Below, one piece after another: positions 782 to 23,359 of a stretch of DNA of 64,000 nt (within the stretch, counting starts at the first letter, position 1; each line of letters starts with the position of its first letter). A program made the position numbers and the translations under genes. The DNA is from Thauera sedimentorum (GTDB lineage Bacteria > Pseudomonadota > Gammaproteobacteria > Burkholderiales > Rhodocyclaceae), in the NCBI RefSeq assembly GCF_014489115.1, contig NZ_JACTAH010000001.1, forward strand, positions 620,001 to 684,000. Direction: 5' to 3'. The notes under the pieces are model-generated. The model saw only the letters and a program-made list of their open reading frames with translations. It was not told the DNA's origin and ran no database searches.

Positions 782-1870
782 TCAGCCGCCGGGCGTGCTG
801 ACTTCGAGGCCGTCGCGCAGGGCCTCGTTGCCGCGGGTCACGATGCGCTCGCCGCCGTCGAGTCCTTCGGTGACGAAGACCCTGTCGCCGGCCGATCCGC
901 CGACCCGCACGAGCTGCTCGCGCACCCGGTGGCGCCCGTCGTCACCGAGCGCCTCGGCCACCCACACGGTGACGCGGCCGTCGGGGTAGCGGTTGATCGC
1001 GTCGCGCACCACCGACAGCGCCTGTCCTTCGCGGATCAGGCGAAGGCTGGCCGACACCGCCATGCCGGGCACGAGCGGCGCGCCTTCCGGCGGCAGGGCG
1101 CGCAGCAGGAAGGTGCGCGCCTGTGCGTCGGTGACCGGCAGCCAGGTTTCGATGGCGGCGGACTGCCGCCCGGCGCCCGGCACCTCGATGGCCAGGGTCG
1201 TGTCCGCGCCGAGCAGGGCGAAGGCCTGCTGCGGCACCTGGAAGTCCACCAGCAGATCGGCAGTATCCACCAGGGTAAAGACTGCGTCGCCCGGCTCGAC
1301 CCACTGCCCGGCATCCGCGGCACGTGCGCTGACGACGGCGTCGAAGGGCGCGTGCAGGGCATGGCGGCGCAGGCGGGCGGCCTGCAGGCGCTCGGCCGCG
1401 CGGGCGCGCACCAGGGCGGCCTCGGCAATGCCCACCTCGCTGGCCCGGCGCGCCTGCTCGGTGGCCGGGATCACCCGTCCGCCGCCCACGCTGTGGGCCT
1501 GCGCCAGCAGGCGCTGGGCCTCGGCCAGGCGCTTCTCCGCTTCACGCACTTCCGCGCTGGTACGGTCGTGCTCCAGGCGCGCAAGCTCGTCATCCAGCCG
1601 CAACAGCAGATCGCCGCGCGCCACCCGGCTGCCGACGTCCACCGCGCGCTCGCGCACCAGCCCGCCTATCGACACCGATACGTCGACATTGCGCCGGGCG
1701 GTCACCGTGCCGTTCAGGGCGATCTCCTCGACCAGCGGGCCGCGTTCCACTTCTCCCAAGACCACGTGCGGCGACTGCGCGCTGGCGGTTGCGGCGATCA
1801 GGGCGAAGGCCCACAAGCTGATGTGCCGGCCGATGGCCAGCGGCCATCGCGCATCCGGTCGCACGGTCAT
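782..1870 (-). CDS. RND efflux periplasmic adaptor (membrane fusion protein)
   Basis: A 362-residue HlyD/AcrA-family adaptor linking an inner-membrane RND pump to an outer-membrane channel. I chose the ATG at 1870 because GGGAGAG lies just upstream and the product then begins with a hydrophobic signal-like segment (LWAFALIAATASAQS). A barrel-sandwich (lipoyl-like) half follows (TVTARRNVDVSVSIGGLV, then GSRVARGDLLLRLDDE). Next come an alpha-hairpin rich in Ala, Glu and Arg near residues 100-160, and the returning lipoyl half (ALHAPFDAVVSAR). The stop is 3 nt before the permease start, so the pair forms an operon. An earlier in-frame start at 1921 lacks a ribosome site. Confidence 0.87.
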   Translation of the reverse strand: MTVRPDARWPLAIGRHISLWAFALIAATASAQSPHVVLGEVERGPLVEEIALNGTVTARRNVDVSVSIGGLVRERAVDVGSRVARGDLLLRLDDELARLEHDRTSAEVREAEKRLAEAQRLLAQAHSVGGGRVIPATEQARRASEVGIAEAALVRARAAERLQAARLRRHALHAPFDAVVSARAADAGQWVEPGDAVFTLVDTADLLVDFQVPQQAFALLGADTTLAIEVPGAGRQSAAIETWLPVTDAQARTFLLRALPPEGAPLVPGMAVSASLRLIREGQALSVVRDAINRYPDGRVTVWVAEALGDDGRHRVREQLVRVGGSAGDRVFVTEGLDGGERIVTRGNEALRDGLEVSTPGG

Positions 1871-3887: not shown

Positions 3888-4725
3888 ATTCGACGAAGGC
3901 GCGAATCTTCGGTGACAGGTGCTTGCGTTGCGGGTAGACCGCATATATGGATATCTCCATTGCCGCGTAGTCGGTCAGCACCGCCTTGAGCCGGCCCGCG
4001 CGGATGTCGGCGCCAACCACGAAGGTGGGGGTGAGCATGACGCCCGCCCCCTGAAGCACGGCCTCGCGCAAGGCGAGGCTGTTGTTCATGCGCAGCCGGT
4101 GGGCGAGGCTCACACGGACTAAACCGCCGTCGGGGGCGGTAAAGCGCCATTCGTCCGGTGAATCGTGGTAGCGGAACACAAGGGCGGCATGGCGGGCCAG
4201 GTCCTCCGGGGTCTGCGGAACGCCACGGCGCGCAAAGTAGTCGGGCGTGCCACAGACCACATGCCGGCAGGGGCCAAGGCGACGCGCCACCAGCGACGAA
4301 TCGGGCAAGTCGCCGATGCGGATGGCCAGGTCGAAGCCTTCTTCCACCAGGTCCACCTTGCGGTCATCGAGCACCATGTCGACCGTCAGTTCCGGATAGC
4401 GCAACTGGAAAGCCGACAGTTTCGGCGCGATGTGAAGGATGCCGAACGACATCGGGCTGCTGATGCGCAGTTCGCCCCGCGGCGTGCCCTGCAGACGCGA
4501 GACCTCGGCCTCTGCCTCTTCGATCTCCAGCAAGCCACGCTGACTGCGCTCGAAGAATGCGCGCCCGACCTCCGTGAGACTCAGGCGGCGCGTGGTGCGA
4601 TTGAGCAGGCGCGCGCCGAGACGATCCTCCAAACGGGTGACGTACTTGCTCACCACGGATTTGGACAGGTCGAGCTTGTCGGCGGCGGCGGTAAAACTGC
4701 CGCTGTTGACCACCTGAACGAACAC
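3844..4725 (-). CDS. LysR-family regulator with a lost or displaced start codon
   Basis: A LysR-type regulator of the common form: an N-terminal winged helix-turn-helix (SFTAAADKLDLSKSVVSKYVTRLEDRLGARLLNRTTR) and a C-terminal effector-binding domain (from about residue 85). Homologues normally begin M-D-A-L-N-D-V-A-V-F-V-Q-V. Here the same reading is present upstream, but the expected ATG is ATC (4749-4747), and an in-frame TAA lies 21 bases before it. Translation could therefore start only at the GTG at 4725, removing about eight residues of helix 1. The gene may be functional from GTG or may be decaying; a transposase remnant lies just upstream. It is convergent with the DMT gene. Confidence 0.78.
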   Translation of the reverse strand: MFVQVVNSGSFTAAADKLDLSKSVVSKYVTRLEDRLGARLLNRTTRRLSLTEVGRAFFERSQRGLLEIEEAEAEVSRLQGTPRGELRISSPMSFGILHIAPKLSAFQLRYPELTVDMVLDDRKVDLVEEGFDLAIRIGDLPDSSLVARRLGPCRHVVCGTPDYFARRGVPQTPEDLARHAALVFRYHDSPDEWRFTAPDGGLVRVSLAHRLRMNNSLALREAVLQGAGVMLTPTFVVGADIRAGRLKAVLTDYAAMEISIYAVYPQRKHLSPKIRAFVEFMTEQIQDPPYWEP

Positions 4726-4881
4726 GGCGACATCGTTGAGGGCGTCGATGGTGCTCCAGATTGGTGTTTATATGCGAACAATAGTAGTGCTTTTTCTGGA
4801 ATTGTGACTTCGTGTGAGGGTGACGTGCTCCGGACTTCATAGGTACCTTCTCCCTCACAACGAGTCTTCATGGAGGTCGTG

Positions 4882-5115
4882 ATGGAAACGAAGAAGGCGC
4901 AGCCGCGCTTTACCGAAGAGTTCAAGTTCAAAGCGGTCAAGCAGGTGACCGAACGGGGGCATGCGGTCGCTGAAGTGGTGTGTGCCTCGGTGTAAGCGCC
5001 CATAGCCTTTACACCGGGATCAAGCGCTATCCTGTTCCTGCACAGCTGCGCGCTCAGTACGACAGCAGGCTGAAAAGATCTGGCGCCTGACAGCCGAACT
5101 GCGGCGCGCGGCCTC
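4882..5115 (+). pseudogene. Remnant of an IS3-family orfA transposase
   Basis: From the ATG at 4882, 37 codons read METKKAQPRFTEEFKFK then AVKQVTERGHAVAEV, the typical start of IS3-family OrfA (helix-turn-helix subunit). The frame stops at 4993. The expected continuation resumes in another frame as LGVSAHSLYTGIKRY and PAQLRAQY, and in a third as QQAEKIWRLTAELRRA up to about 5115. Two frameshifts thus break it, and neither orfB nor clear terminal inverted repeats are visible. It is a decayed insertion scar between two LysR genes and can make no transposase. Confidence 0.75.
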
Positions 5116-5129
5116 CGCCCCGCAAGTCG

Positions 5130-6032
5130 TCAGCTTCCTGGAAACAACGCCCTGTTCGCCTCGACCGTCTGCCGAAACGCGGCAACGATAGGTGAGGTGT
5201 CGTCGCGGCGGTAGATGCAGCACAGGTCGACGGAACTGCCCGCGGGGGTGTCGGTGAGCGGTCGGTACACCACGCCGGGCAGTTGCAGGGTGGTCGCCGA
5301 TTCCGGTACCAGGCAGACACCGAATCCCGCTGCCACCAGCGCGACGCCGGTGACGGCATCGCCGACTTCCTGGGAGATGTGCGGTTCGAAGCCGCTGTCC
5401 GTGCACAGCCCGATCACCTTGTCCATGAAGTTGGGCCGTGCGCCGGTGGGGAAGAGCACCATCGGCTGCCCCTCCAGTTCGCGGAAGGGGATGGATTCGC
5501 GCTGTGCCAGGGGGTTGCTGGTGGGGACGGCCAGCAGCAGGCGCTCGACCATGACCGGCTGGACGTCGATGTCGTCCTGCGGCGCCAGCATGCGGTTGAA
5601 GCCGACCGAGATGCGGCGCTGGCGCAGCGCTTCGATCTGCTCGGCCTTGGTCATCGTGTGCAGCACCACCTTGACCTCCGGGTAGTTGCTGCGGAAGGCG
5701 AGCAGCACCTTGGGGATGGCATCGAGGATGGCCGAGCCGAAGATCGCCACATCGAGCCGCCCGAGCTTGCCCTGGCCGGCACGCTGGGTGCGCTCGGTGG
5801 CCTGTTCCACCACCGAACGGATATTGCGCGCTTCTTCCAGAAACAGCTGGCCCGCTTCGGTGAGTTCCACGCCGCGCGGCGTGCGGTTGAACAGACGTGC
5901 GCCGAGTTCTTCTTCCAGTTGCTGGATCTGGCGGGTGAGCGGGGGTTGCGAGATGTGCAGCCGGGCCGCCGCACGGCCGATGTTCAGCTCCTCGGCGACG
6001 GCGATGAAATAGCGCAGATGGCGGAGATCCAT
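5130..6032 (-). CDS. LysR-type regulator of the BenM/CatM kind
   Basis: A 300-residue LysR regulator. The ATG at 6032 is chosen because AGGAG precedes it and the product begins MDLRHLRYFIAVAEELNIG, the classic start of the BenM/CatM/CatR group. The helix-turn-helix covers about residues 17-37 (RAAARLHISQPPLTRQIQQL) and the effector domain about 90-295. BenM and CatM recognise ATAC-N7-GTAT. Exactly such a site lies 34 bases upstream in the divergent promoter region, and another stands before the lower meta-pathway operon at 23294. I infer that it activates both, sensing a ring-degradation intermediate. The effector is unknown; muconate would be the precedent but fits a meta pathway poorly. Confidence 0.88.
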   Translation of the reverse strand: MDLRHLRYFIAVAEELNIGRAAARLHISQPPLTRQIQQLEEELGARLFNRTPRGVELTEAGQLFLEEARNIRSVVEQATERTQRAGQGKLGRLDVAIFGSAILDAIPKVLLAFRSNYPEVKVVLHTMTKAEQIEALRQRRISVGFNRMLAPQDDIDVQPVMVERLLLAVPTSNPLAQRESIPFRELEGQPMVLFPTGARPNFMDKVIGLCTDSGFEPHISQEVGDAVTGVALVAAGFGVCLVPESATTLQLPGVVYRPLTDTPAGSSVDLCCIYRRDDTSPIVAAFRQTVEANRALFPGS

Positions 6033-6066: not shown

Positions 6067-6081
6067 ATACCTCAAAGGTAT
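6067..6081. promoter_or_regulatory. LysR (BenM/CatM-type) operator ATAC-N7-GTAT, copy 1
   Basis: ATACCTCAAAGGTAT fits the ATAC-N7-GTAT recognition site known for BenM/CatM. It lies between the divergent LysR gene and the DUF1302 gene, and its right half-site ends 21 bases before a -35-like TTGGAC. The same arrangement, base for base in spacing, occurs at 23294. Binding is inferred from the motif and the adjacent regulator. Confidence 0.7.
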
Positions 6082-6102
6082 CGAGTGGCGTCTTCAATGG
6101 TA

Positions 6103-6132
6103 TTGGACGGTAAGGATGCGGCTGGATAAGGT
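6103..6132 (+). promoter_or_regulatory. Probable sigma-70 promoter of the DUF1302 operon
   Basis: TTGGAC (6103-6108), an 18-base spacer and TAAGGT (6127-6132) form a weak activator-dependent promoter. The weak -10 box fits a LysR-activated promoter. The layout matches the promoter at 23330-23359, which supports a shared design. The start of transcription would be near 6139. Confidence 0.5.
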
Positions 6133-6211: not shown

Positions 6212-7897
6212 ATGGATCAAGGATCCCTTTGCCGCGTGGGAGCAGAGGTGCCGAAGCGTTGGCGGCTTGCCGGCGTGCTCGCACTGTCCTGCGTCGGGCT
6301 GTCGGCGCCGGGTGTCGCGAGCGCGTTCCAGATCGACACGGACAACCCGGACCTGCGCATCACCTGGGACAACACCTTCAAGTACAGCGCCGCCTGGCGC
6401 GTGCGCAAGGTCGACAGCGCCGTGGCCGACAACTCGATCGGTCCGCAGGCGAACACCAACGACGGCGACCTCAACTTTGGCCGCGGGCTGATCTCGAACC
6501 GGCTCGACCTGCTGTCCGAACTCGATGTCCGCTACAAGCGTGACTACGGCTTCCGTATCAGCGGGGCGGCGTGGTACGACGACGTCTACAACCGCTCGAA
6601 CGACAACCCGGGTGCGCTTGGCGGCGCGTTGCTGAACCACCGTTCCACCGACTACGACGAATTCACCCGCGACACCGAGAAGCTGCACGGCCGCAAGGCG
6701 GAGTTTCTCGATGCCTTTGTTTACGGCAACTTCGCCCCGGGCGGCAAACGCCTGAACGTGAAGGCAGGCCGCTTCACCCAGCTCTATGGCGAGAGCCTGT
6801 TCTTCGGCAGCAACGGTATTGCCGGTGCGCAGACGCCCCTGGACCTTGCGCGCGCACTGTCGGTGCCGAACTCGCAGTTCAAGGAAGTTGCGCGCCCGGT
6901 CGGTCAGGTGTCGGCGCAGTTGCAACTCAGCCCGGACGTGACGATCGGCGCGTACTACCAGGTTGAATGGCGCAAGTCCCGTCTGCCGGCAGCCGGCAGC
7001 TACTTCAGCTTTGCGGACTTCGTCGATGATGGCGGCGAGACGCTGATTCTCGGACCCGGGGCGGTCGCGTTCCGTGGCAAGGACCTGGAGGCCAAGAACT
7101 CCGGTCAGGGTGGTGTTCAGGTTCGCTTCAAGAGCGAGGATGCCGAGTTTGGCCTCTACGCCGCGCAGTACCACGACAAGATGCCGCAGTTCTACGCGCG
7201 TCCCGGTGTCAATGTGCGCCCGGGCAGCGTCGGCGACTACGTACAGGTGTTTGCCGAGAACATCCGCACGGTCGGCGCCAGCGTGAGCACGCTGATAGGC
7301 GAGACCAACGTGGCGGCCGAACTTTCCTTCCGCGACAACATGCCTTTGGTGGCCAGCGGTAATGCCGTGATCACCGGCGCCTCGTCCGATGGCGACGACA
7401 ACGCGGCGTTTCCCAAGGGGCGCACGCTGCACCTGAACCTGTCGGCGATCAGTGTGCTTGGTGCCAGTCCGCTGTGGGACGGTGCCTCGTTCATCGGCGA
7501 GTTCGCCTACAACCGCCGCCTCAAGGTTACCGACAACCGCGACCAGCTCGACCCGCTGGCGACGCGCGACGCCGGGGCCATCCAGTTTGTGTTCACGCCG
7601 GAGTACTTCCAGGTCATGCCGGGTGTCGACCTGCAGGTGCCGATTGGCCTGTCCTACGGCCTGTTCGGGCGCTCTTCGGTCAATGGCGCGCTGTTTCCGG
7701 CGCACCACGGCGGCAACTTCAGCATTGGCGTGAAAGCGGACTACCAGAAGACCTGGCAGGCCAGTCTGAACTTCACCCACTACTTTGGCTCGGCCGGGGC
7801 GGTGGTCAAGTACGGCACCGCGGTGCCCGAGCTGTCCTACGACAACTTCCACCGCGATCGCGACTTCGTCTCGCTGTCCATCCAGCGCACCTTCTGA
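6212..7897 (+). CDS. DUF1302 family outer-membrane protein
   Basis: A 561-residue DUF1302 protein. AGGAGGA lies upstream of the ATG at 6212, and a signal peptide ends near ASA-FQ at about residue 36. The rest is rich in alternating aromatic and polar strands (RLDLLSELDVRYKRDYGF, for example) and ends in SLSIQRTF. A C-terminal Phe is typical of outer-membrane beta-barrels. The family is not characterised in detail, and I infer a porin-like barrel. It opens a four-gene run with DUF1329, a YCF48-like propeller and an MMPL permease, behind a LysR-type promoter. In this context it may pass hydrophobic aromatic compounds or lipids across the outer membrane. Confidence 0.85.
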   Translation: MDQGSLCRVGAEVPKRWRLAGVLALSCVGLSAPGVASAFQIDTDNPDLRITWDNTFKYSAAWRVRKVDSAVADNSIGPQANTNDGDLNFGRGLISNRLDLLSELDVRYKRDYGFRISGAAWYDDVYNRSNDNPGALGGALLNHRSTDYDEFTRDTEKLHGRKAEFLDAFVYGNFAPGGKRLNVKAGRFTQLYGESLFFGSNGIAGAQTPLDLARALSVPNSQFKEVARPVGQVSAQLQLSPDVTIGAYYQVEWRKSRLPAAGSYFSFADFVDDGGETLILGPGAVAFRGKDLEAKNSGQGGVQVRFKSEDAEFGLYAAQYHDKMPQFYARPGVNVRPGSVGDYVQVFAENIRTVGASVSTLIGETNVAAELSFRDNMPLVASGNAVITGASSDGDDNAAFPKGRTLHLNLSAISVLGASPLWDGASFIGEFAYNRRLKVTDNRDQLDPLATRDAGAIQFVFTPEYFQVMPGVDLQVPIGLSYGLFGRSSVNGALFPAHHGGNFSIGVKADYQKTWQASLNFTHYFGSAGAVVKYGTAVPELSYDNFHRDRDFVSLSIQRTF

Positions 7898-7936
7898 CGC
7901 AGCCGACCGTTCGCGAAAAAGAAAGAGGAGACACCC

Positions 7937-9289
7937 ATGTACAAGCAATCGATTCTGCTGACGGCAATGCTCACCGCGCTTGCCGGCAGTGCCAGTGTTT
8001 TCGCCGCCGTGACCGCCGAAGAGGCGGCCGCGCTCAAGACCACGCTCACCCCGCTGGGTGGGGAGCGCGCCGGGAACAAGGACGGCAGCATTCCGGCCTG
8101 GGATGGCGGTCTGGTGAAGCCGGTGCAGGGCAAGAAGATGGGCGACATCCCGCTCGAAGTCTTCGCCGGCGACAAAGTGAGCTACCAGGTCACCGCCAAG
8201 AACATGGGCGAACATGCCGCCCTGCTGTCCGATGGCACCAAGGCGCTGCTGCAGAAGTACCCGGACAGCTTCCGCCTCGACGTCTATCCGACCCGGCGCA
8301 CCGGTGCCGCACCGCAGAAGGTTTACGACAACGTGGCGAAGAACGCCACGCGCTGCAAGACGACCGACAACGGCTACTCGCTGGAAGGCTGCATCGGCGG
8401 CACGCCTTTCCCGATTCCGAAGAGCGGTGTCGAGGTGATGTGGAACTACCTGCTGCGTACCGAGGCGCCGTCCATCGAGTACCGCTTCAAGAACATCGTG
8501 GGCAATGCAGACGGCTCGCACACGCTGGCCACCCGCAACGAAATCGCCTTCCAGTATCCGCCGTACTACGCGGACGCCACCCCTGAGAGCTGGTCCGGCG
8601 AGTACGCGATCCTGCGTTTCAACACGCTTGAGCCGCCTTTCAAGGCTGGTGAGTCACTGGTGATCCGCGACAGCATCGACCAGAAGAACGCCCGTCAGGC
8701 CTGGCAGTACCTGGTCGGCCAGCGCCGTGTGCGCCGCGCGCCGACGGTGGCCTACGACACGCCGGATTTCGTTGCGTCGGGCGCCAACTACTTTGACGAG
8801 GTGCAAGGCCTGTTCGGCTCGCTCGACCGTTACGAGTGGAAGCTGGTCGGCAAGCAGGAAATGCTGGTGCCCTACAACACCAACGGCTTCATTGCTGCCC
8901 CGGTCAAGGAGGCGCTTGCTGAGCACCACCTCAACCCGGATCACCTGCGCTGGGAGCGTCACCGCGTGTGGGTCGTCGAGGCCACGGTCGCGTCGGGCAA
9001 GCGTCACGCCGTGCCCAAGCGCCGCTATTACGTCGATGAGGACACCTGGCTGGTGGTCCTGATGGACGGCTACGATGCCGAAGGCAAACTGTGGCGCACC
9101 ACCCAGGTCACGCCCTTTGTCGTGCCCTCGATCCCGGCCACGCTGATCAAGACCGCCACCGTGTTCAACCTGCAGGCGAACACAATGAGTGTGATCCAGG
9201 CGCTCAATGAGGAGGACTTCCGCGTCGTGGAGCCCAAGCCGGAGACCTACTTCACCGGCGACGCGGTCGCCGCCGAAGCCTCCCGTTAA
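7937..9289 (+). CDS. DUF1329 family periplasmic protein
   Basis: A 450-residue protein with a signal peptide (cleavage near VFA-AV, residue 23) and the family's early signature LTPLGGERAGNKDGSIPAW. DUF1329 proteins are related in fold to the LolA/LolB lipoprotein carriers, with a half-barrel that holds acyl chains. A role as a periplasmic shuttle for a hydrophobic ligand is therefore plausible but unproven. AGAGGAG precedes the ATG, and the gene is 39 bases after DUF1302. Its steady pairing with DUF1302 and an RND/MMPL permease argues for one envelope transport complex. Confidence 0.85.
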   Translation: MYKQSILLTAMLTALAGSASVFAAVTAEEAAALKTTLTPLGGERAGNKDGSIPAWDGGLVKPVQGKKMGDIPLEVFAGDKVSYQVTAKNMGEHAALLSDGTKALLQKYPDSFRLDVYPTRRTGAAPQKVYDNVAKNATRCKTTDNGYSLEGCIGGTPFPIPKSGVEVMWNYLLRTEAPSIEYRFKNIVGNADGSHTLATRNEIAFQYPPYYADATPESWSGEYAILRFNTLEPPFKAGESLVIRDSIDQKNARQAWQYLVGQRRVRRAPTVAYDTPDFVASGANYFDEVQGLFGSLDRYEWKLVGKQEMLVPYNTNGFIAAPVKEALAEHHLNPDHLRWERHRVWVVEATVASGKRHAVPKRRYYVDEDTWLVVLMDGYDAEGKLWRTTQVTPFVVPSIPATLIKTATVFNLQANTMSVIQALNEEDFRVVEPKPETYFTGDAVAAEASR

Positions 9290-9372
9290 GCCGCCACCGG
9301 CATCCTCTGTTCCCGCTACCGCGCCGGCTTGCAGTACAGCCGGTGCGGCGGGTGGATTCGCGAGTCAAGACG

Positions 9373-10494
9373 ATGGTCATTACAGTTTCCGGCGCGCGGC
9401 GGCTCTTCCGGCTCTCCGCGGTTGCTCTCCTCTCCTGCTGTCTCGGCAGCGCCGTCGCGCAGGCCGGAACCCGTCAGGTACCTGATCTTCTCGATTTGCC
9501 CGCACGTGTCGATGCGCGGGCGCAGCATGGACTGCAGCTTGCCGTGGCACGGGCCGGCGACCGCCTGGTCGCGGTCGGTGTGCGAGGCAATGTCGTGCTT
9601 TCCGACGATGCCGGGCGCAGCTGGCGTCAGGCGCGTTCGGTGCCGGTCAGCGTCGCGCTGACCAGCGTGCACTTCGTATCGGCCAGCGAAGGCTGGGCGG
9701 CCGGACACGGGGGCATCGTGCTGCACAGCGCCGATGGCGGCGAAACCTGGAGCCGCCAGCTCGACGGCCGCCAGGCCGCCGCCCTGGTGCTGGACGAAGC
9801 GCGTGCCCGGCTCGCTGCCGGTGAAGAGCGTGCGGCGCGGGCGGTGCGCGACGCCGAGCGCATGGTGGAGGAGGGGCCGGACAAGCCGCTGCTCGGCGTG
9901 TATTTCGTCGATACGCAACGCGGCTACGTGGTTGGCGCCTACGGTCTGGCCTTTACCACTGCAGACGGCGGCAAGAGCTGGCAGTCGATTACCGGCCTCA
10001 TCCCGAACCCGCGTGGCAAGCATCTTTACCAAGTGCAGGTCGAGGGCGACGATGTGCTGATCGCCGGCGAGCAGGGCGCGCTGTTCCGCTCCACCGACGG
10101 CGGGACACAGTTCGCCGCACTGCAGACGCCGTATGCCGGCACCTTCTTCGGCGCGGTGATGGTCGATCACGAGCGTTTGCTGGCCTTCGGCTTGCGCGGC
10201 AACGCCTGGCTGAGCGAGGACGCCGGCCTGAGCTGGAACCAGGTGCCGATTGACCAGGACATCACCCTGACCACCGGCGCCCGCCTGCCCGACGGCAGCG
10301 TGGTTCTCGCCGACGAGAGCGGCCGTCTGCTGCGCAGCACCGACGGTGCGCGCAGCTTCCGCGCCCTGCCGCTGCCTGCGGCCACCGGCCTGACCGGCTT
10401 TGTGCCGGCCGCCGACGGCGCGCTGGTGGTGGCCGGGGCGCGCGGTCTGGCGCGCGTCGAGCAAAACCGGATTCTTGCGGAAGCCAAGCAATGA
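9373..10494 (+). CDS. YCF48/HCF136-like beta-propeller protein, exported
   Basis: A 373-residue secreted protein. After a signal segment (LFRLSAVALLSCCLGSAVAQAG) it carries six or seven Asp-box repeats of the S-x-D-x-G-x-[ST]-W type, such as LSDDAGRSW, HSADGGETW, TTADGGKSW, RSTDGGTQF and LSEDAGLSW. They predict a seven-bladed propeller like the photosystem II assembly factor YCF48. In non-phototrophs such proteins sit beside RND/MMPL permeases, where a periplasmic scaffold or adaptor role is likely. The start is uncertain: a GTG at 9343 adds ten residues, and neither has a strong ribosome site. The stop overlaps the next start (ATGA). Confidence 0.8.
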   Translation: MVITVSGARRLFRLSAVALLSCCLGSAVAQAGTRQVPDLLDLPARVDARAQHGLQLAVARAGDRLVAVGVRGNVVLSDDAGRSWRQARSVPVSVALTSVHFVSASEGWAAGHGGIVLHSADGGETWSRQLDGRQAAALVLDEARARLAAGEERAARAVRDAERMVEEGPDKPLLGVYFVDTQRGYVVGAYGLAFTTADGGKSWQSITGLIPNPRGKHLYQVQVEGDDVLIAGEQGALFRSTDGGTQFAALQTPYAGTFFGAVMVDHERLLAFGLRGNAWLSEDAGLSWNQVPIDQDITLTTGARLPDGSVVLADESGRLLRSTDGARSFRALPLPAATGLTGFVPAADGALVVAGARGLARVEQNRILAEAKQ

Positions 10495-12893
10495 GCCTAG
10501 CCCATACCCTTCCCGCCGCGCCGGTCTTCGTGCGCGAGTTGCAGGACTTCGACCCCCGATCGGGATCGCTGCTCGAGCGCCTGCTGTTCAACAACCGCGC
10601 CGTGGTGCTCATCTTCTGCGTGCTGGCCACCGTGCTGCTGGGCTACCAGGCGCTCGGACTGCGGCTGAATGCCGCGTTCGAGAAGATGATCCCGACCGGG
10701 CATCCCTACATCGTCAACTTCCTTGAGCATCGCAGCCAGCTTGCCGGCATGGGCAACAGTTTGCGCATTGCGGTCGAGGCGACCGATGGCGACATCTTCG
10801 ATGCGGACTACCTCGACACGGTGCGCAAGCTCAGTGACGAGCTCTTCCTGATGCCCGGCGTCGACCGCCCCTACATGAAGTCGCTGTGGGCGCCCGCGGT
10901 GCGCTGGACCGGCGTCACCGAAGAAGGCCTCGACGGTGGGCCGGTGATCCCCGACGACTATGACGGCTCGCCGGAAAGCCTAGAGCAGGTGCGCCTGAAC
11001 GTGGAGCGTTCCGGTGAAATCGGCCAACTGGTCGCTGCCAACTTCAAGTCCAGCATCGTGCTGGTGCCGCTGCAGGACCGCATCGCCGACACCGGCGAGC
11101 GCATTGACTACCACGCGCTGTCCATGCGCCTGGAAGAGCTGCGCGCCAGGTACGAGTCCGAAGGTATCCGCATTCACATCACCGGCTTTGCCAAAGTGGT
11201 CGGCGACCTGATCGACGGCCTGCAGCAGGTGATGGTGTTCTTCGCCGCCGCGATCGCCATCTGCACCGGCGTGCTGTTCTGGTACACCCGCTGCCTGCGC
11301 AGCACGCTGCTGGTGATGCTGTGTTCGCTGACTGCGGTGGTGTGGCTGTTCGGGCTGTTGCCCACGCTCGGCTACGAGCTTGATCCCTATTCGATCCTGG
11401 TGCCCTTCGTGGTGTTCGCCATCGGCATGAGCCACGGTGCGCAGAAGATGAACGGCATCATGCAGGACATCGGCCGCGGCACCCACCGGCTGGTGGCGGC
11501 GCGCTATACCTTCCGCCGTCTGTTCCTCACCGGCATGATTGCGCTGATCACCGATGCGGTCGGCTTCGCGGTGCTGATGGTGATCGACATTCCGGTCATC
11601 CAGGATCTCGCCGTCACCGCCAGCATTGGCGTCGCGGTGCTGATCTTCACCAACCTGATCGTGCTGCCGGTGCTGCTCTCCTACACCGGGGTGAGCGAGG
11701 CCGCCGCGCGCCGCAGCCATGAAGCGGAGCGACTGGAGCGGGGCGACACCGAGCACCGGCGCCACCCCTTCTGGGCCTTCCTCGATCTCTTCACCCAGCG
11801 CAAATGGGCCACCATCGGCGTTGCCGTGGGTGTGGCGCTCGGCGCGCTGGGCGTGGTCGGAGGCGCACAACTGCGCATCGGCGACACCGACCCCGGTGCG
11901 CCCGAGCTGCGTCCGGACTCGCGCTACAACCGCGACAACGCCTTCATCGGCGCCAACTACGCGGCCAGCAGCGATGTGTTCATCGTCATGGTGAAGACGC
12001 CGCAGTACGCCTGCGGGCAGTACGACACGCTGATGGCGGTCGATGCGCTCGAACGCGAATTGCAGCAACTGCCGGGCGTGGAAGGCACGAGCTCGCTGGC
12101 AGGGCTGGCCAAGGTCGCCAACGCGGGCATGAACGAAGGTAGCCTGAAGTGGTTCGAGATTCCGCGCTCGCAGGACATGCTGAACGCGATCATCACCCGC
12201 GCCCCGCGCGAGATGTTCAACCAGGACTGCAACCTGCTGACGGTGTACGCCTACCTGAAGGACCACAAGGCCGACACCCTGGCCAGCGTGGTTGCCACGG
12301 TCGAGGCGTTTGCGGCGCAGTACGGTACGGATGACGTGCGCTTCCTCAACGCGGCGGGCAATGCCGGCATCGAGGCGGCGACCAACATCGTCGTCGAGCG
12401 CGCCAACACGCAGATGCTTATCTTCGTGTATGCCGCGGTGATCATCCTGGCCTTCGTCAGTTTCCGCTCCTGGCGTGCGGTGGTGTGCGCGGTGGTGCCG
12501 CTGATGATCACCTCGGTGCTGTGCCAGGCGCTGATGGTGTGGCTCAACATCGGCGTCAAGGTGGCGACGCTGCCGGTGATCGCGCTCGGCGTGGGCATCG
12601 GCGTCGATTACGCGCTGTACGTGATGACCGTGGTGCTCGCACGCATGAAGGACGGCATGAGCCTGTCCGAGGCCTACTACAAGGCGCTGATCTTCACCGG
12701 CAAGGTCGTCGTGCTAACCGGCATCACGCTGGGCATCGCGGTGTCCACCTGGGCGTGGTCGCCGATCAAGTTCCAGGCCGACATGGGCATCCTGCTCGCG
12801 TTCATGTTCGTCTGGAACATGCTGGGTGCGCTCATCCTGCTGCCGGCCCTCAGCCACTTCCTGCTGCGGCCCACACGTGCCGCCGCGCTCTGA
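10491..12893 (+). CDS. MMPL/RND-family transporter
   Basis: An 800-residue RND-superfamily permease of the MMPL/HpnN kind. There are two equal halves, each with one helix (VVLIFCVLATVLLGYQALGL at about 36; WATIGVAVGVALGALGVVGG at about 440), a large periplasmic loop and then five helices. The second helix block includes GVGIGVDYALYVMTVVLARM, with the acidic residue expected for proton coupling. It overlaps the propeller gene by 4 nt and is the last member of the DUF1302-DUF1329-YCF48 group, for which it is the probable motor. Export of a lipid or hydrophobic aromatic is the most likely job; uptake cannot be excluded. Confidence 0.87.
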   Translation: MSLAHTLPAAPVFVRELQDFDPRSGSLLERLLFNNRAVVLIFCVLATVLLGYQALGLRLNAAFEKMIPTGHPYIVNFLEHRSQLAGMGNSLRIAVEATDGDIFDADYLDTVRKLSDELFLMPGVDRPYMKSLWAPAVRWTGVTEEGLDGGPVIPDDYDGSPESLEQVRLNVERSGEIGQLVAANFKSSIVLVPLQDRIADTGERIDYHALSMRLEELRARYESEGIRIHITGFAKVVGDLIDGLQQVMVFFAAAIAICTGVLFWYTRCLRSTLLVMLCSLTAVVWLFGLLPTLGYELDPYSILVPFVVFAIGMSHGAQKMNGIMQDIGRGTHRLVAARYTFRRLFLTGMIALITDAVGFAVLMVIDIPVIQDLAVTASIGVAVLIFTNLIVLPVLLSYTGVSEAAARRSHEAERLERGDTEHRRHPFWAFLDLFTQRKWATIGVAVGVALGALGVVGGAQLRIGDTDPGAPELRPDSRYNRDNAFIGANYAASSDVFIVMVKTPQYACGQYDTLMAVDALERELQQLPGVEGTSSLAGLAKVANAGMNEGSLKWFEIPRSQDMLNAIITRAPREMFNQDCNLLTVYAYLKDHKADTLASVVATVEAFAAQYGTDDVRFLNAAGNAGIEAATNIVVERANTQMLIFVYAAVIILAFVSFRSWRAVVCAVVPLMITSVLCQALMVWLNIGVKVATLPVIALGVGIGVDYALYVMTVVLARMKDGMSLSEAYYKALIFTGKVVVLTGITLGIAVSTWAWSPIKFQADMGILLAFMFVWNMLGALILLPALSHFLLRPTRAAAL

Positions 12894-12908: not shown

Positions 12909-13940
12909 ATGTACCGACATTTGCTGGTGCCGCTGGACGGCTCGGAGCTTGCCACGACCCTGGTGAGCGGCGCGCTGGAACTGGCCTGCGTGTGCGGGGC
13001 GCGCATCACCTTCTTCACCATGCGCGACGACTACGGTGCGAGCGACGAGGGCGCGCTGGTTCGCGCCATGGCGCCCGACACATTCAACGAGGTGGCCGCT
13101 GGACACGCCAACGCGATCATCGCCAAGGCGATCGCGGCGGCTGAGTCTTACGGCGTGCAGTGCGACGGGCTGGTGCGCACCGGCAGTCGCCCGTATGAGC
13201 TGATCGTCCAGGTGGCGCGCGAGCGAAGCTGCGACCTGATCTACATGGGGTCGCACGGTCGCCGCGGGCTGCGTGCCCTCCTGCCCGGCTCGCAGACGCA
13301 AAAGGTGATCGCGCATGCGAGTGTTCCGGTACTGGTGGCGACCGTCGAGACCAACAGCGTGGGCAATGCCTGCGATGCAGCGATCGCGATCATTCTTGAC
13401 GAGCACCGTGCGATCGCAGCCGTTTGCAACGGGCTGCGCGGCATGGCCACGCAACTGCGCACCGGTGCTGCGGTTGATCTCGCCTTCCTCGATGCGATGC
13501 TGCACTACCTGCGGAACTTTTCGGACGAACTGCATCATCCGAAGGAGGAGCAGTACCTGTTCGCCCGTCTCGCAGGGCGGAGCGTGGAGCTAGACGACGT
13601 GCTGGCCGTACTGGCACGCGAACACAGTGACGGCGCGGCTCAGCTCGCGCAGTTGGAGGAGCGCGTCGGACAGTGCCGCGGCGATGCTACCCGCAGGGCT
13701 GCGCAGGCACTCGCAGCGGACCTCGATGACTTCGTCGACGCACAATGGCGCCACCTCAGCGCCGAGGAAAAGATCGTGCTACCTGCCGCGCGGCGTCAGC
13801 TCAACGAAGTGGATTGGCAGCAGATCGGCGACGCATTCCGTCTCAATGGAGAGCTCTCGCTCGGCGGCGAGCGAGGTGTCGCCTTCGAGCGCCTGTTTGC
13901 CCGGTTGATGAACCAGGCGGCCGACGCGGCTTCCTGCTGA
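12909..13940 (+). CDS. UspA-hemerythrin fusion protein
   Basis: 343 residues in two domains. Residues 1 to about 145 are a universal stress protein (MYRHLLVPLDGSELA) with the ATP-binding G-x2-G-x9-GS pattern seen in GSHGRRGLRALLPGS. Residues about 158-300 look like a hemerythrin HHE domain: DEHRAI, DELHHPKEEQYLF, REHSDGA and WRHLSAEEKIVLP supply the His and Glu ligands for a di-iron site that could bind oxygen or NO. The fusion suggests a cytoplasmic protein joining nucleotide binding to oxygen or redox sensing. It follows the MMPL gene by 15 nt and precedes a chemoreceptor by 3 nt, so it may belong to the same transcript. Confidence 0.85.
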   Translation: MYRHLLVPLDGSELATTLVSGALELACVCGARITFFTMRDDYGASDEGALVRAMAPDTFNEVAAGHANAIIAKAIAAAESYGVQCDGLVRTGSRPYELIVQVARERSCDLIYMGSHGRRGLRALLPGSQTQKVIAHASVPVLVATVETNSVGNACDAAIAIILDEHRAIAAVCNGLRGMATQLRTGAAVDLAFLDAMLHYLRNFSDELHHPKEEQYLFARLAGRSVELDDVLAVLAREHSDGAAQLAQLEERVGQCRGDATRRAAQALAADLDDFVDAQWRHLSAEEKIVLPAARRQLNEVDWQQIGDAFRLNGELSLGGERGVAFERLFARLMNQAADAASC

Positions 13941-13943
13941 CTG

Positions 13944-15533
13944 ATGCGTCGGAGCATGGCGATGCGCCGGTGGACGAGTGGCAGGCTTGCTGTGCCGCTG
14001 GCCGTGGCGACGACTTCCGTGGCTGCCGCGCAGGCAGGTGCCGCAAGCGGGCCCGAGCGATGGGTGTGGGGGACGCTCGCTGTGCTGGTAGCGATACTTG
14101 CACTATGGCGGGCCTCCTGCGAGGAGCGGGCGGTCGCCGTCGCCATCGAGCGCATTCGAGCACAACTCGACGACCATGTGCAGGTTGGAGGTGGCGTAAC
14201 AGCGTCAATTGCGCGGCTCGAAACCGTGCTGGCGGAGAAGGTCGCATGCGCCGAACGGATGAGCATATTGGCACGCGAGCTGACCGTTGCCACCGGCAGC
14301 CTCGTGTCGAGTTTTACCGACATCGTCGCCGCGGCTGATCGTCAGTCGCTCCTCGTCGGGCAGGCGACGGACGAGGTAAAGGCGATGGCCGTGCGCGCCC
14401 AGGGGACGTCGGCGCAGGCACAGGGCCTCGCCGCGTCATCCGCTGCGGCAAGCGAGCGCGCCGCTGACGGCGGCACGCAAGTGCATTTCATATCGGGAGT
14501 GATGCACGAACTCGCGAGCGCGGTAGCGGCGGCGGGCACGGAGTTCGACCACGTGAGGGCGCAGGTGTCGCGCATAGGCGAAATCGTGGCGATCATCCGC
14601 GAAATCGCCGGACAGACCAATCTGCTGGCCCTCAACGCCGCGATCGAGGCTGCCCGAGCCGGTGAGCAGGGGCGCGGGTTTGCCGTGGTGGCCGACGAGG
14701 TGCGCAAGCTCGCCGAGCGCACCGGCGCGGCTACCTTGAGCGTGGGTGAGATCATCGGCGCGATCGGTGAAGGCATTGATCGGCTGCATCACGGGATTGC
14801 GGCAGCCGGTGCGGGCACTCAGGACGGTGTCGCCCGAGCGACCGATGCGACGCGTGTGCTCGACGATGTTGCAGATGCCGCGAAAGAGACGGCAGTGGCG
14901 GTGCGGCGGATCGCCGAGACCGCGAGTACCGAGGCGCAAAGCGCGGGACGATTCGTCGAGGACACCGGCGGTATCGCGCAACTTGCCGGCGAACTCGACG
15001 AGCGAGTGAACCTTTGCAACGGCGGGCTGCGTGAGCTGATGATGGGCTTGGTAGACCTGAAGTGCCTTGCGAGCACGCTCGACGTGGGACGCGACGCCAT
15101 GGCCGCGATGCTCGACGCCATCGAGGAGACTCGCGCGCACAACATCCTTGTGCTCAACGCACGCGAGTCGGCGCAGGCGATCCCGCACATGGAGCGCATC
15201 GCGGCTCTCGACCTGGAGGTCGATGGGCATCTCGACTGTGTACAGGCCTCCGCGGAAGTCGCGCAAGAGCTTCGGGAGCTAAGGCGTGCGCTTGCGGAAT
15301 ACCGTCGAGCGCGCGACGAACTGCTTGGCGCTGTGCGTGGCGGTACGCTGGAGTCGGTGCGCGAAAGCGGCTCGGCTCGCGTTAGACTGGCTTACCGCGC
15401 GCTGAAGGAGGCCTATGCGGCGCTCGCTTCGCGAGCCGCGGCTGCGGCAGCGCAGAAAGGCGCGCGGTCGCCGATCGACAAAGACAAGCAGAACCGGACG
15501 CGAGTTGCGGCATTGAACATGCCTCGCCAGTGA
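13944..15533 (+). CDS. Methyl-accepting chemotaxis protein with an extra C-terminal helical domain
   Basis: A 529-residue chemoreceptor. Two N-terminal hydrophobic segments (about 13-33 and 38-54) have almost no loop between them, so there is no periplasmic sensor. The conserved signalling hairpin reads [42 protein letters not shown] at about 215-255, so it should couple to CheA/CheW. Behind the signalling part lies an Ala/Glu/Arg-rich helical region (about 385-505), with [14 protein letters not shown] and [13 protein letters not shown], that resembles a four-helix bundle. Sensing is therefore probably cytoplasmic or at the membrane. Lying beside the phenol activator, it is a candidate for taxis toward aromatic compounds. 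Confidence 0.85.
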
Positions 15534-15553: not shown

Positions 15554-17236
<1,683 letters not shown>

Positions 17237-17526: not shown

Positions 17527-17544
17527 CTGGCACGGTCTCTGCAA
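17527..17544 (+). promoter_or_regulatory. Sigma-54 (-24/-12) promoter
   Basis: CTGGCACGGTCTCTGCAA has the invariant GG (17529-17530) and GC (17541-17542) exactly ten bases apart and matches the TGGCAC-N5-TTGC consensus with one change (C for the first T of the -12 box). Transcription should start near 17554, about 84 bases before the dioxygenase ATG. With a DmpR-type activator encoded directly upstream, this is the inducible promoter of the phenol hydroxylase operon. Confidence 0.85.
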
Positions 17545-23293: not shown

Positions 23294-23308
23294 ATACTGA
23301 AAAGGTAT
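23294..23308. promoter_or_regulatory. LysR (BenM/CatM-type) operator ATAC-N7-GTAT, copy 2
   Basis: ATACTGAAAAGGTAT fits ATAC-N7-GTAT. It shares AAAGGTATCGA with the copy at 6067, and both are followed by 15 unrelated bases, a GTATT and then GACGGTA. The half-site ends 21 bases before a -35-like TTAGAC, as in copy 1. This points to one LysR protein acting at both promoters. Confidence 0.7.
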
Positions 23309-23329
23309 CGAATCCGCGATAACAAAGTA

Positions 23330-23359
23330 TTAGACGGTATTCCGGTGCTTTCCTAGACT
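23330..23359 (+). promoter_or_regulatory. Probable sigma-70 promoter of the lower meta-pathway operon
   Basis: TTAGAC (23330-23335), an 18-base spacer and TAGACT (23354-23359) give a start near 23366, about 94 bases before the dehydrogenase ATG. The box spacing equals that of the promoter at 6103-6132. It implies that the lower pathway can be expressed apart from the sigma-54 operon. Confidence 0.5.

Follow-up and report, generated by a model that had tools for sequence, protein, structure and literature searches.

The 64,000-nucleotide stretch of Thauera sedimentorum DNA analyzed here, from now on called the window, carries a four-gene cassette encoding DUF1302, DUF1329, YCF48 and MMPL proteins (A, B, C and D) in a phenol/meta-cleavage island. 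With a probability of roughly 0.7, the cassette specifies an AmeABCD-type trans-envelope transporter of hydrophobic compounds, which would explain the locus as a whole apart from the direction of transport. All four Pfam matches lie over cut-off and in order at 6212-12893, as the original prediction had proposed; its four-part envelope module, the regulation and the co-occurrence were borne out, whereas the module boundary and the status of an undescribed system were not. The locus is one further AphT/AmeABCD-type case of a known four-protein machine: it has the families and gene order of AmeABCD (PMC6394551), AphT control was predicted in 2019 (PMC6449761), and the available parts of PMC10866462, PMC7012976, PMC13101534, PMC3110197 and PMC6304351 likewise led us to reject novelty. 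What is added here is the genome-wide exclusivity of an operator pair, a Ser-His/Asp-Tyr pair in the pump, a LolA-fold model of the window DUF1329 protein and pump-esterase fusions; the residue pair and the fusion are reported from sequence, unchecked against the literature. How Gram-negative degraders pass oily pollutants through two membranes, or exclude them, is unsettled, and the live question is the direction of transport. Cargo and direction were left open in the original prediction.

Several related systems have been described. AmeABCD of Castellaniella defragrans 65Phen, for which a deletion phenotype is reported (PMC6394551), shares with the window its families (DUF1302, DUF1329/LolA superfamily, COG4447, HAE3 RND), their identical order and a position beside a hydrocarbon catabolic island. 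The island there is dedicated to monoterpenes, while the window has a phenol/meta island and a LysR operator. For Dechloromonas aromatica RCB, Suvorova and Gelfand (2019, PMC6449761) predicted two operons under AphT: the first holds aphC together with homologues of lower-pathway genes, the second the four families. The four genes of Methylibium petroleiphilum PM1 were likewise predicted to be under AphT, as was an Azoarcus sp. BH72 operon in which such a cassette is followed by genes for a universal stress protein (USP), a chemoreceptor and LapR. Roles in sensing, toxicity and solvent stress were proposed by the authors. The window resembles this regulon in having the four families in an aromatic cluster and, as in BH72, a USP, a methyl-accepting chemotaxis protein and a LapR-like activator; the difference is that the operator was here searched for genome-wide and found before two operons only. 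In Pseudomonas putida, PP_0765, PP_0766, PP_2018 and PP_2019 encode a DUF1302, a DUF1329, a periplasmic and an efflux-type transporter protein, which co-folding suggested to form a transport system (PMC10866462). This set is similar in composition and common phenotype, but is split between two loci and acts on a fatty-acid ester detergent. DUF1329, universal stress, YCF48 and MMPL proteins of a "nanopod" cluster in ORM2a are expressed during benzene degradation (PMC13101534); ORM2a differs in being an anaerobic member of the Desulfobacterota, its porin-like partner is listed as hypothetical and the authors leave direction open. According to the same source, second-hand, loss of a Delftia DUF1329 gene impaired growth on phenanthrene. 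On the n-C28 alkane, a protein that combines MMPL and LolA-like domains is raised, and so is a predicted porin next to it (PMC6304351).

Regulation of the cassette can be approached through a divergent LysR gene and its putative operator. The nearest solved chains of the regulator are CbnR (1ixc, 3.6e-61), BenM and CatM, and AlsR is its best NCBIfam model, with a score under that model's cut-off. The regulator is probably AphT, a name taken from the gene arrangement in PMC6449761. As in the AphT regulon, a CatR/ClcR-type LysR gene adjoins the predicted controlled operon and a T-N11-A operator precedes both the cassette and the lower-pathway genes. ATAC-N7-GTAT occurs twice in the window against 0.06 expected, and both copies carry the identical second half, GTATTRGACGGTA. 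Genome-wide (3.96 Mb), the composite operator is confined to two sites, one ahead of the cassette and the other ahead of the lower meta operon, and it is kept in relatives. This agrees with the promoter design shared by cassette and lower meta pathway that the original prediction had described and, together with the CbnR/BenM/CatM kinship, is consistent with its proposal of control by a ring-cleavage-type regulator. The composite operator lies within 500 nucleotides (nt) upstream of DUF1302 in 23/26 loci with a LysR gene (at least 58% identity to that of the window) and in 2/49 without, counts that come from related loci and are thus not independent events. LysR-carrying loci missing it are L029, L038 and L042, and L024 and L041 have it without the gene; this tally covers 75 of 80 loci, L010, L025, L044, L051 and L060 being left out for an unusable DUF1302 hit. 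The simple palindrome was found in 25/27 regions, window included, compared with 0.095 expected from mononucleotide shuffles. Before the lower-pathway aldehyde dehydrogenase (full-length genes of >75% identity, two truncated genes excluded), the operator stands 134-139 nt upstream of the match start in 6/9 loci, with L013, L038 and L042 as misses. A slightly looser form is present in 17/150 genomes of the family, and the reversed control pattern in 0/150. The looser form was found in 0/3 other same-genus genomes of this sample, so the module looks accessory. Binding of the LysR protein at these operators, and a ring-cleavage product as its inducer, would fit the sequence data.

The cassette is conserved as a unit, as a co-occurrence survey, suggested with the original prediction, bears out. 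From a pool of at least 584 pump relatives, the best 80 loci were compared; all four genes were matched in 75, and in 74 of those 75 they follow the order A-B-C-D on one strand. The exceptions are L010, L025 and L044, which start <180 nt from a contig end, L051, a 3.7-kb contig, and L060, with C and D only. In a phylum sample of 299 genomes, 36 have DUF1302 (E to 1e-30), 34 have the pump (E to 1e-60) and 33 have both, the lists being matched by eye and the Fisher test ignoring kinship among genomes. A DUF1329 match with E below 1e-50 is present in 33/33 of the paired genomes. Unpaired genomes are G069, G153 and G185, with DUF1302 only, and G193, with the pump only. At L015, an additional DUF1329 gene (4056-5405) is located between the LysR gene and DUF1302, the usual copy being at 7351-8703.

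By structural modeling, the DUF1302 protein of the window has a porin fold and the DUF1329 protein a LolA-like fold, as in LolA/LolB; no PDB sequence matched the latter at E up to 1. None of the four genes encodes an HlyD/MFP adaptor or a member of a TolC-like outer-membrane factor family, which separates the cassette from HAE1 systems such as AcrAB-TolC and, with the two folds, agrees with the classical adaptor/TolC set having been thought absent. For the pump, hydropathy predicts 12 spans, with large loops of 191 and 180 residues reaching into the periplasm. S314-H315 (Ser-His, span 4) and D706-Y707 (Asp-Tyr, span 10) are present in 99/99 aligned pumps and may act as a proton relay. HpnN (6wu0) is the only solved chain that matches the pump at E up to 0.001 (7.9e-7). 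HpnN has an Asp in its N-half helix (GVDF) and lacks one at the corresponding C-half place, an arrangement that is reversed in the window pump.

We propose that the proton gradient would power the RND pump (D) in passing a hydrophobic aromatic to or from the LolA-fold carrier (B) in the periplasm, that the propeller (C) would dock on the pump and that the porin-like barrel (A) would serve as an outer-membrane door, the four proteins possibly forming one complex. A CatM/AphT-like LysR activator may sense a ring-cleavage product and switch on the lower meta pathway in concert with the cassette operon. Since genes for a stress protein, a chemoreceptor and a DmpR-type activator belong to the same run, the operon may also exert feed-forward control on phenol hydroxylase.

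With respect to direction, inward delivery of a growth substrate has about even odds. It would be favored by the requirement of the four P. putida proteins for Tween 20 metabolism (PMC10866462) and by in-frame fusions of the pump to a carboxylesterase at L077:10001-14188, L080:10001-14206 and L081:9983-14110. The fused esterases all contain GESAGG, and in L077 PF00135 is matched from residue 810. Hydropathy indicates no membrane span at the three junctions; this crude scan did flag weak segments within the L077 and L081 esterases and, in each of the three proteins, one additional segment in periplasmic loop 1. Since 12 spans should leave the C-terminus in the cytoplasm, the fused enzyme would sit at the delivery side of an importer. 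The three loci form a single clade. PF00135 and PF03176 occur together in 14 protein clusters (P0001-P0014) among 120 listed of 407, where P0003 is of fragment length (849 residues), the source name of P0004 already joins both domains, and the three fusion clusters named by organism are Duganella or Oxalobacteraceae. The fusion is suggestive of import over the published export, not proof of it; an esterase feeding an exporter is the alternative. Tentatively, and with clearly less confidence than in inward delivery as such, a proton-driven importer of hydrophobic growth substrates across both membranes can be envisaged, in which the porin would be the entrance, the LolA-fold carrier would run inward and the pump, with the unusual Ser-His/Asp-Tyr pair as its relay, would deliver cargo to cytoplasmic enzymes, including, in some Oxalobacteraceae, the fused esterase. 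If true, this would be an RND system running inward on small hydrophobic nutrients, contrary to the published exporter label. Its conserved operator makes the cassette an inducible locus for experiments; the fusion to an esterase offers a testable handle on direction and is the most useful lead.

A number of points weigh against an inward AmeABCD-type transporter. Phenol passes membranes unaided. The fused pumps lie outside the clade of the window pump, to which they are 65-66% identical, and the best-ranking NCBIfam model of the latter, TIGR00921 (HAE3), scores under cut-off. The likeness to AmeABCD is one of families and order. Relatives of HpnN move hopanoids outward. Order is looser among 18 further loci, hand-picked from 49 pump matches in the 299-genome sample: one to three genes had no nearby match (1e-5) in L089, L090, L097 and L102, L091 and L095 use opposite strands, and L087 contains a gap. 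Finally, with acetate present the ameABCD mutant grew less well once limonene exceeded 5 mM, and carbonyl cyanide m-chlorophenyl hydrazone (CCCP) left it with slightly more Nile Red; both results were read by the authors as export (PMC6394551).

These deletion and Nile Red data speak for the published AmeABCD reading, in which toxic hydrophobic aromatics would be captured by the pump in the inner membrane or periplasm and passed outward, giving solvent tolerance, a serious contender at somewhat under even odds. The stress protein gene within the run and the toxicity and solvent-stress roles proposed in PMC6449761 point the same way. However, the mutant hardly differed from the wild type in its kinetics of Nile Red efflux, and deletion of ameABCD reduced growth on the apolar monoterpenes themselves (PMC6394551), as the P. 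putida mutants are impaired on Tween 20 (PMC10866462); such poor growth on the oily substrate is equally expected of an uptake defect. The position of the fused esterase on the cytoplasmic side also argues against efflux. Although the cassette is known from several catabolic islands and plasmids, one deletion study was found as a published test of direction.

Envelope remodeling, in which the cargo taken to the outer membrane would be a membrane lipid or a lipidated product in place of an aromatic and surface hydrophobicity would change, is improbable. The LolA fold of DUF1329, the hopanoid cargo of HpnN as the nearest solved chain, and the DUF1302 and DUF1329 proteins in vesicle-bearing nanopods of phenanthrene-grown Delftia would suit such remodeling, but location in catabolic clusters for different aromatics is odd for a general lipid carrier. 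That the four genes are neighbors with separate functions is very improbable: the rearranged or incomplete further loci and the P. putida gene tags from two places (PMC10866462) allow for it, yet 74/75 complete loci keep one order and the separated P. putida genes have a common phenotype.

Table 1. Features of the cassette locus and its surroundings (positions within the window).
Feature	Position	Strand	Remarks
LysR-type regulator, divergent, CatM/BenM/CbnR-like	5130..6032	-	PF03466/PF00126
LysR operator (putative), ATAC-N7-GTAT plus downstream GTATTGGACGGTA	6067..6112	+	between LysR gene and cassette
DUF1302 outer-membrane barrel, AmeA-type	6212..7897	+	Pfam over cut-off; signal peptide by eye; C-terminal Phe
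DUF1329 periplasmic carrier, AmeB-type	7937..9289	+	Pfam match over cut-off
YCF48/BNR propeller, AmeC-type	9373..10494	+	PF14870 over cut-off; ATG start from sequence
MMPL/RND pump, HAE3 kind, AmeD-type	10491..12893	+	PF03176 over cut-off; 12 predicted spans
Universal stress protein with hemerythrin domain	12909..13940	+	PF00582, PF01814; same gene run
Methyl-accepting chemotaxis protein	13944..15533	+	PF00015; same gene run
XylR/DmpR-type sigma-54 activator, AphR/LapR-like	15554..17236	+	PF06505, PF00158; closes run
Sigma-54 -24/-12-like site	17528..17543	+	11/12 consensus letters; before catechol 2,3-dioxygenase/phenol hydroxylase
Second LysR operator (putative)	23294..23339	+	before aldehyde dehydrogenase of lower meta operon (23460 on)

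The boundary first drawn after the pump gene is too short, as the run extends to about 17236. The YCF48 and pump genes overlap by 4 nt, and same-strand gaps of 15, 3 and 20 nt precede the USP-hemerythrin, chemoreceptor and XylR/DmpR-type activator genes; the run is presumably co-transcribed. Beyond it lie the genes of catechol 2,3-dioxygenase, of a multicomponent phenol hydroxylase and, from 23460 on, of the lower meta pathway. The sigma-54-like site at 17528 fits the AphT-LapR cascade proposed in PMC6449761, a study that saw no LapR-type sites ahead of the lap genes. A looser sigma-54 pattern gave 8 matches in the window, no excess over the chance mean of 6.7. Among 18 regions upstream of catechol 2,3-dioxygenase, window included, 10 have a site of at least 10/12 consensus letters, three of these at 375-425 nt before the gene, and DmpR-type upstream boxes of at least 11/16 letters occur in 4/18. 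Given the chance-level pattern count and the sparse DmpR boxes, an AphT-to-DmpR cascade is only weakly supported.

Across relatives, a XylR-type gene (at least 58% identity) follows within 6 kb downstream in 21/80 loci, and a USP-like gene lies immediately 3' of the pump in 11/75. A phenol-hydroxylase label applies to 18/81 rows of the pump tree and is clustered there (9 changes vs 16.5 when shuffled, 0/500 as low). This tree was made by a quick method, has 18 open forks, includes the fusions as three overlong rows and was used for clade membership and the phenol label only. In other clades, 30 neighboring genes were scanned (L056 n=10, L069 n=7, L035 n=5, L053 n=5, L045 n=3). Their products include flavin adenine dinucleotide (FAD) hydroxylases, glyoxalase/dioxygenase-superfamily proteins, vanillate-demethylase-type Rieske oxygenases, a XylR-type activator and an FAA hydrolase, but a sulfatase, a gamma-glutamyltranspeptidase and the components of an ABC transporter were found as well. 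Eight plasmids were examined among 40 listed of 51 pump-bearing records, with incomplete gene tables. The four genes are annotated in 7/8 and the pump alone in 1/8; six of the seven keep the order and one reads C-D, insertion sequence, A-B. Hydroxybenzoate, hydroxyquinol or other ring-cleavage genes adjoin the cassette on some plasmids and not on others.

Searches for RNA genes in the window yielded no tRNA and no Rfam match reaching the gathering score. At about 4880-4996, not far from the LysR gene, a short open frame looks by eye like the beginning of an IS3-type transposase, a hint of an earlier insertion. Elsewhere in the same genome, a weak second DUF1302 match (38.9 bits, 440-residue frame) is located at C2:1472213-1472851, while the window copy is the sole DUF1329 match. 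An HlyD-type adaptor is encoded at 782-1870 (-) of the window; nearby, just past the window edge, a frame of 1066 residues matches MMPL/RND at C1:619302-619784 (-), and together they probably constitute a conventional efflux pump, distinct from the four-gene module.

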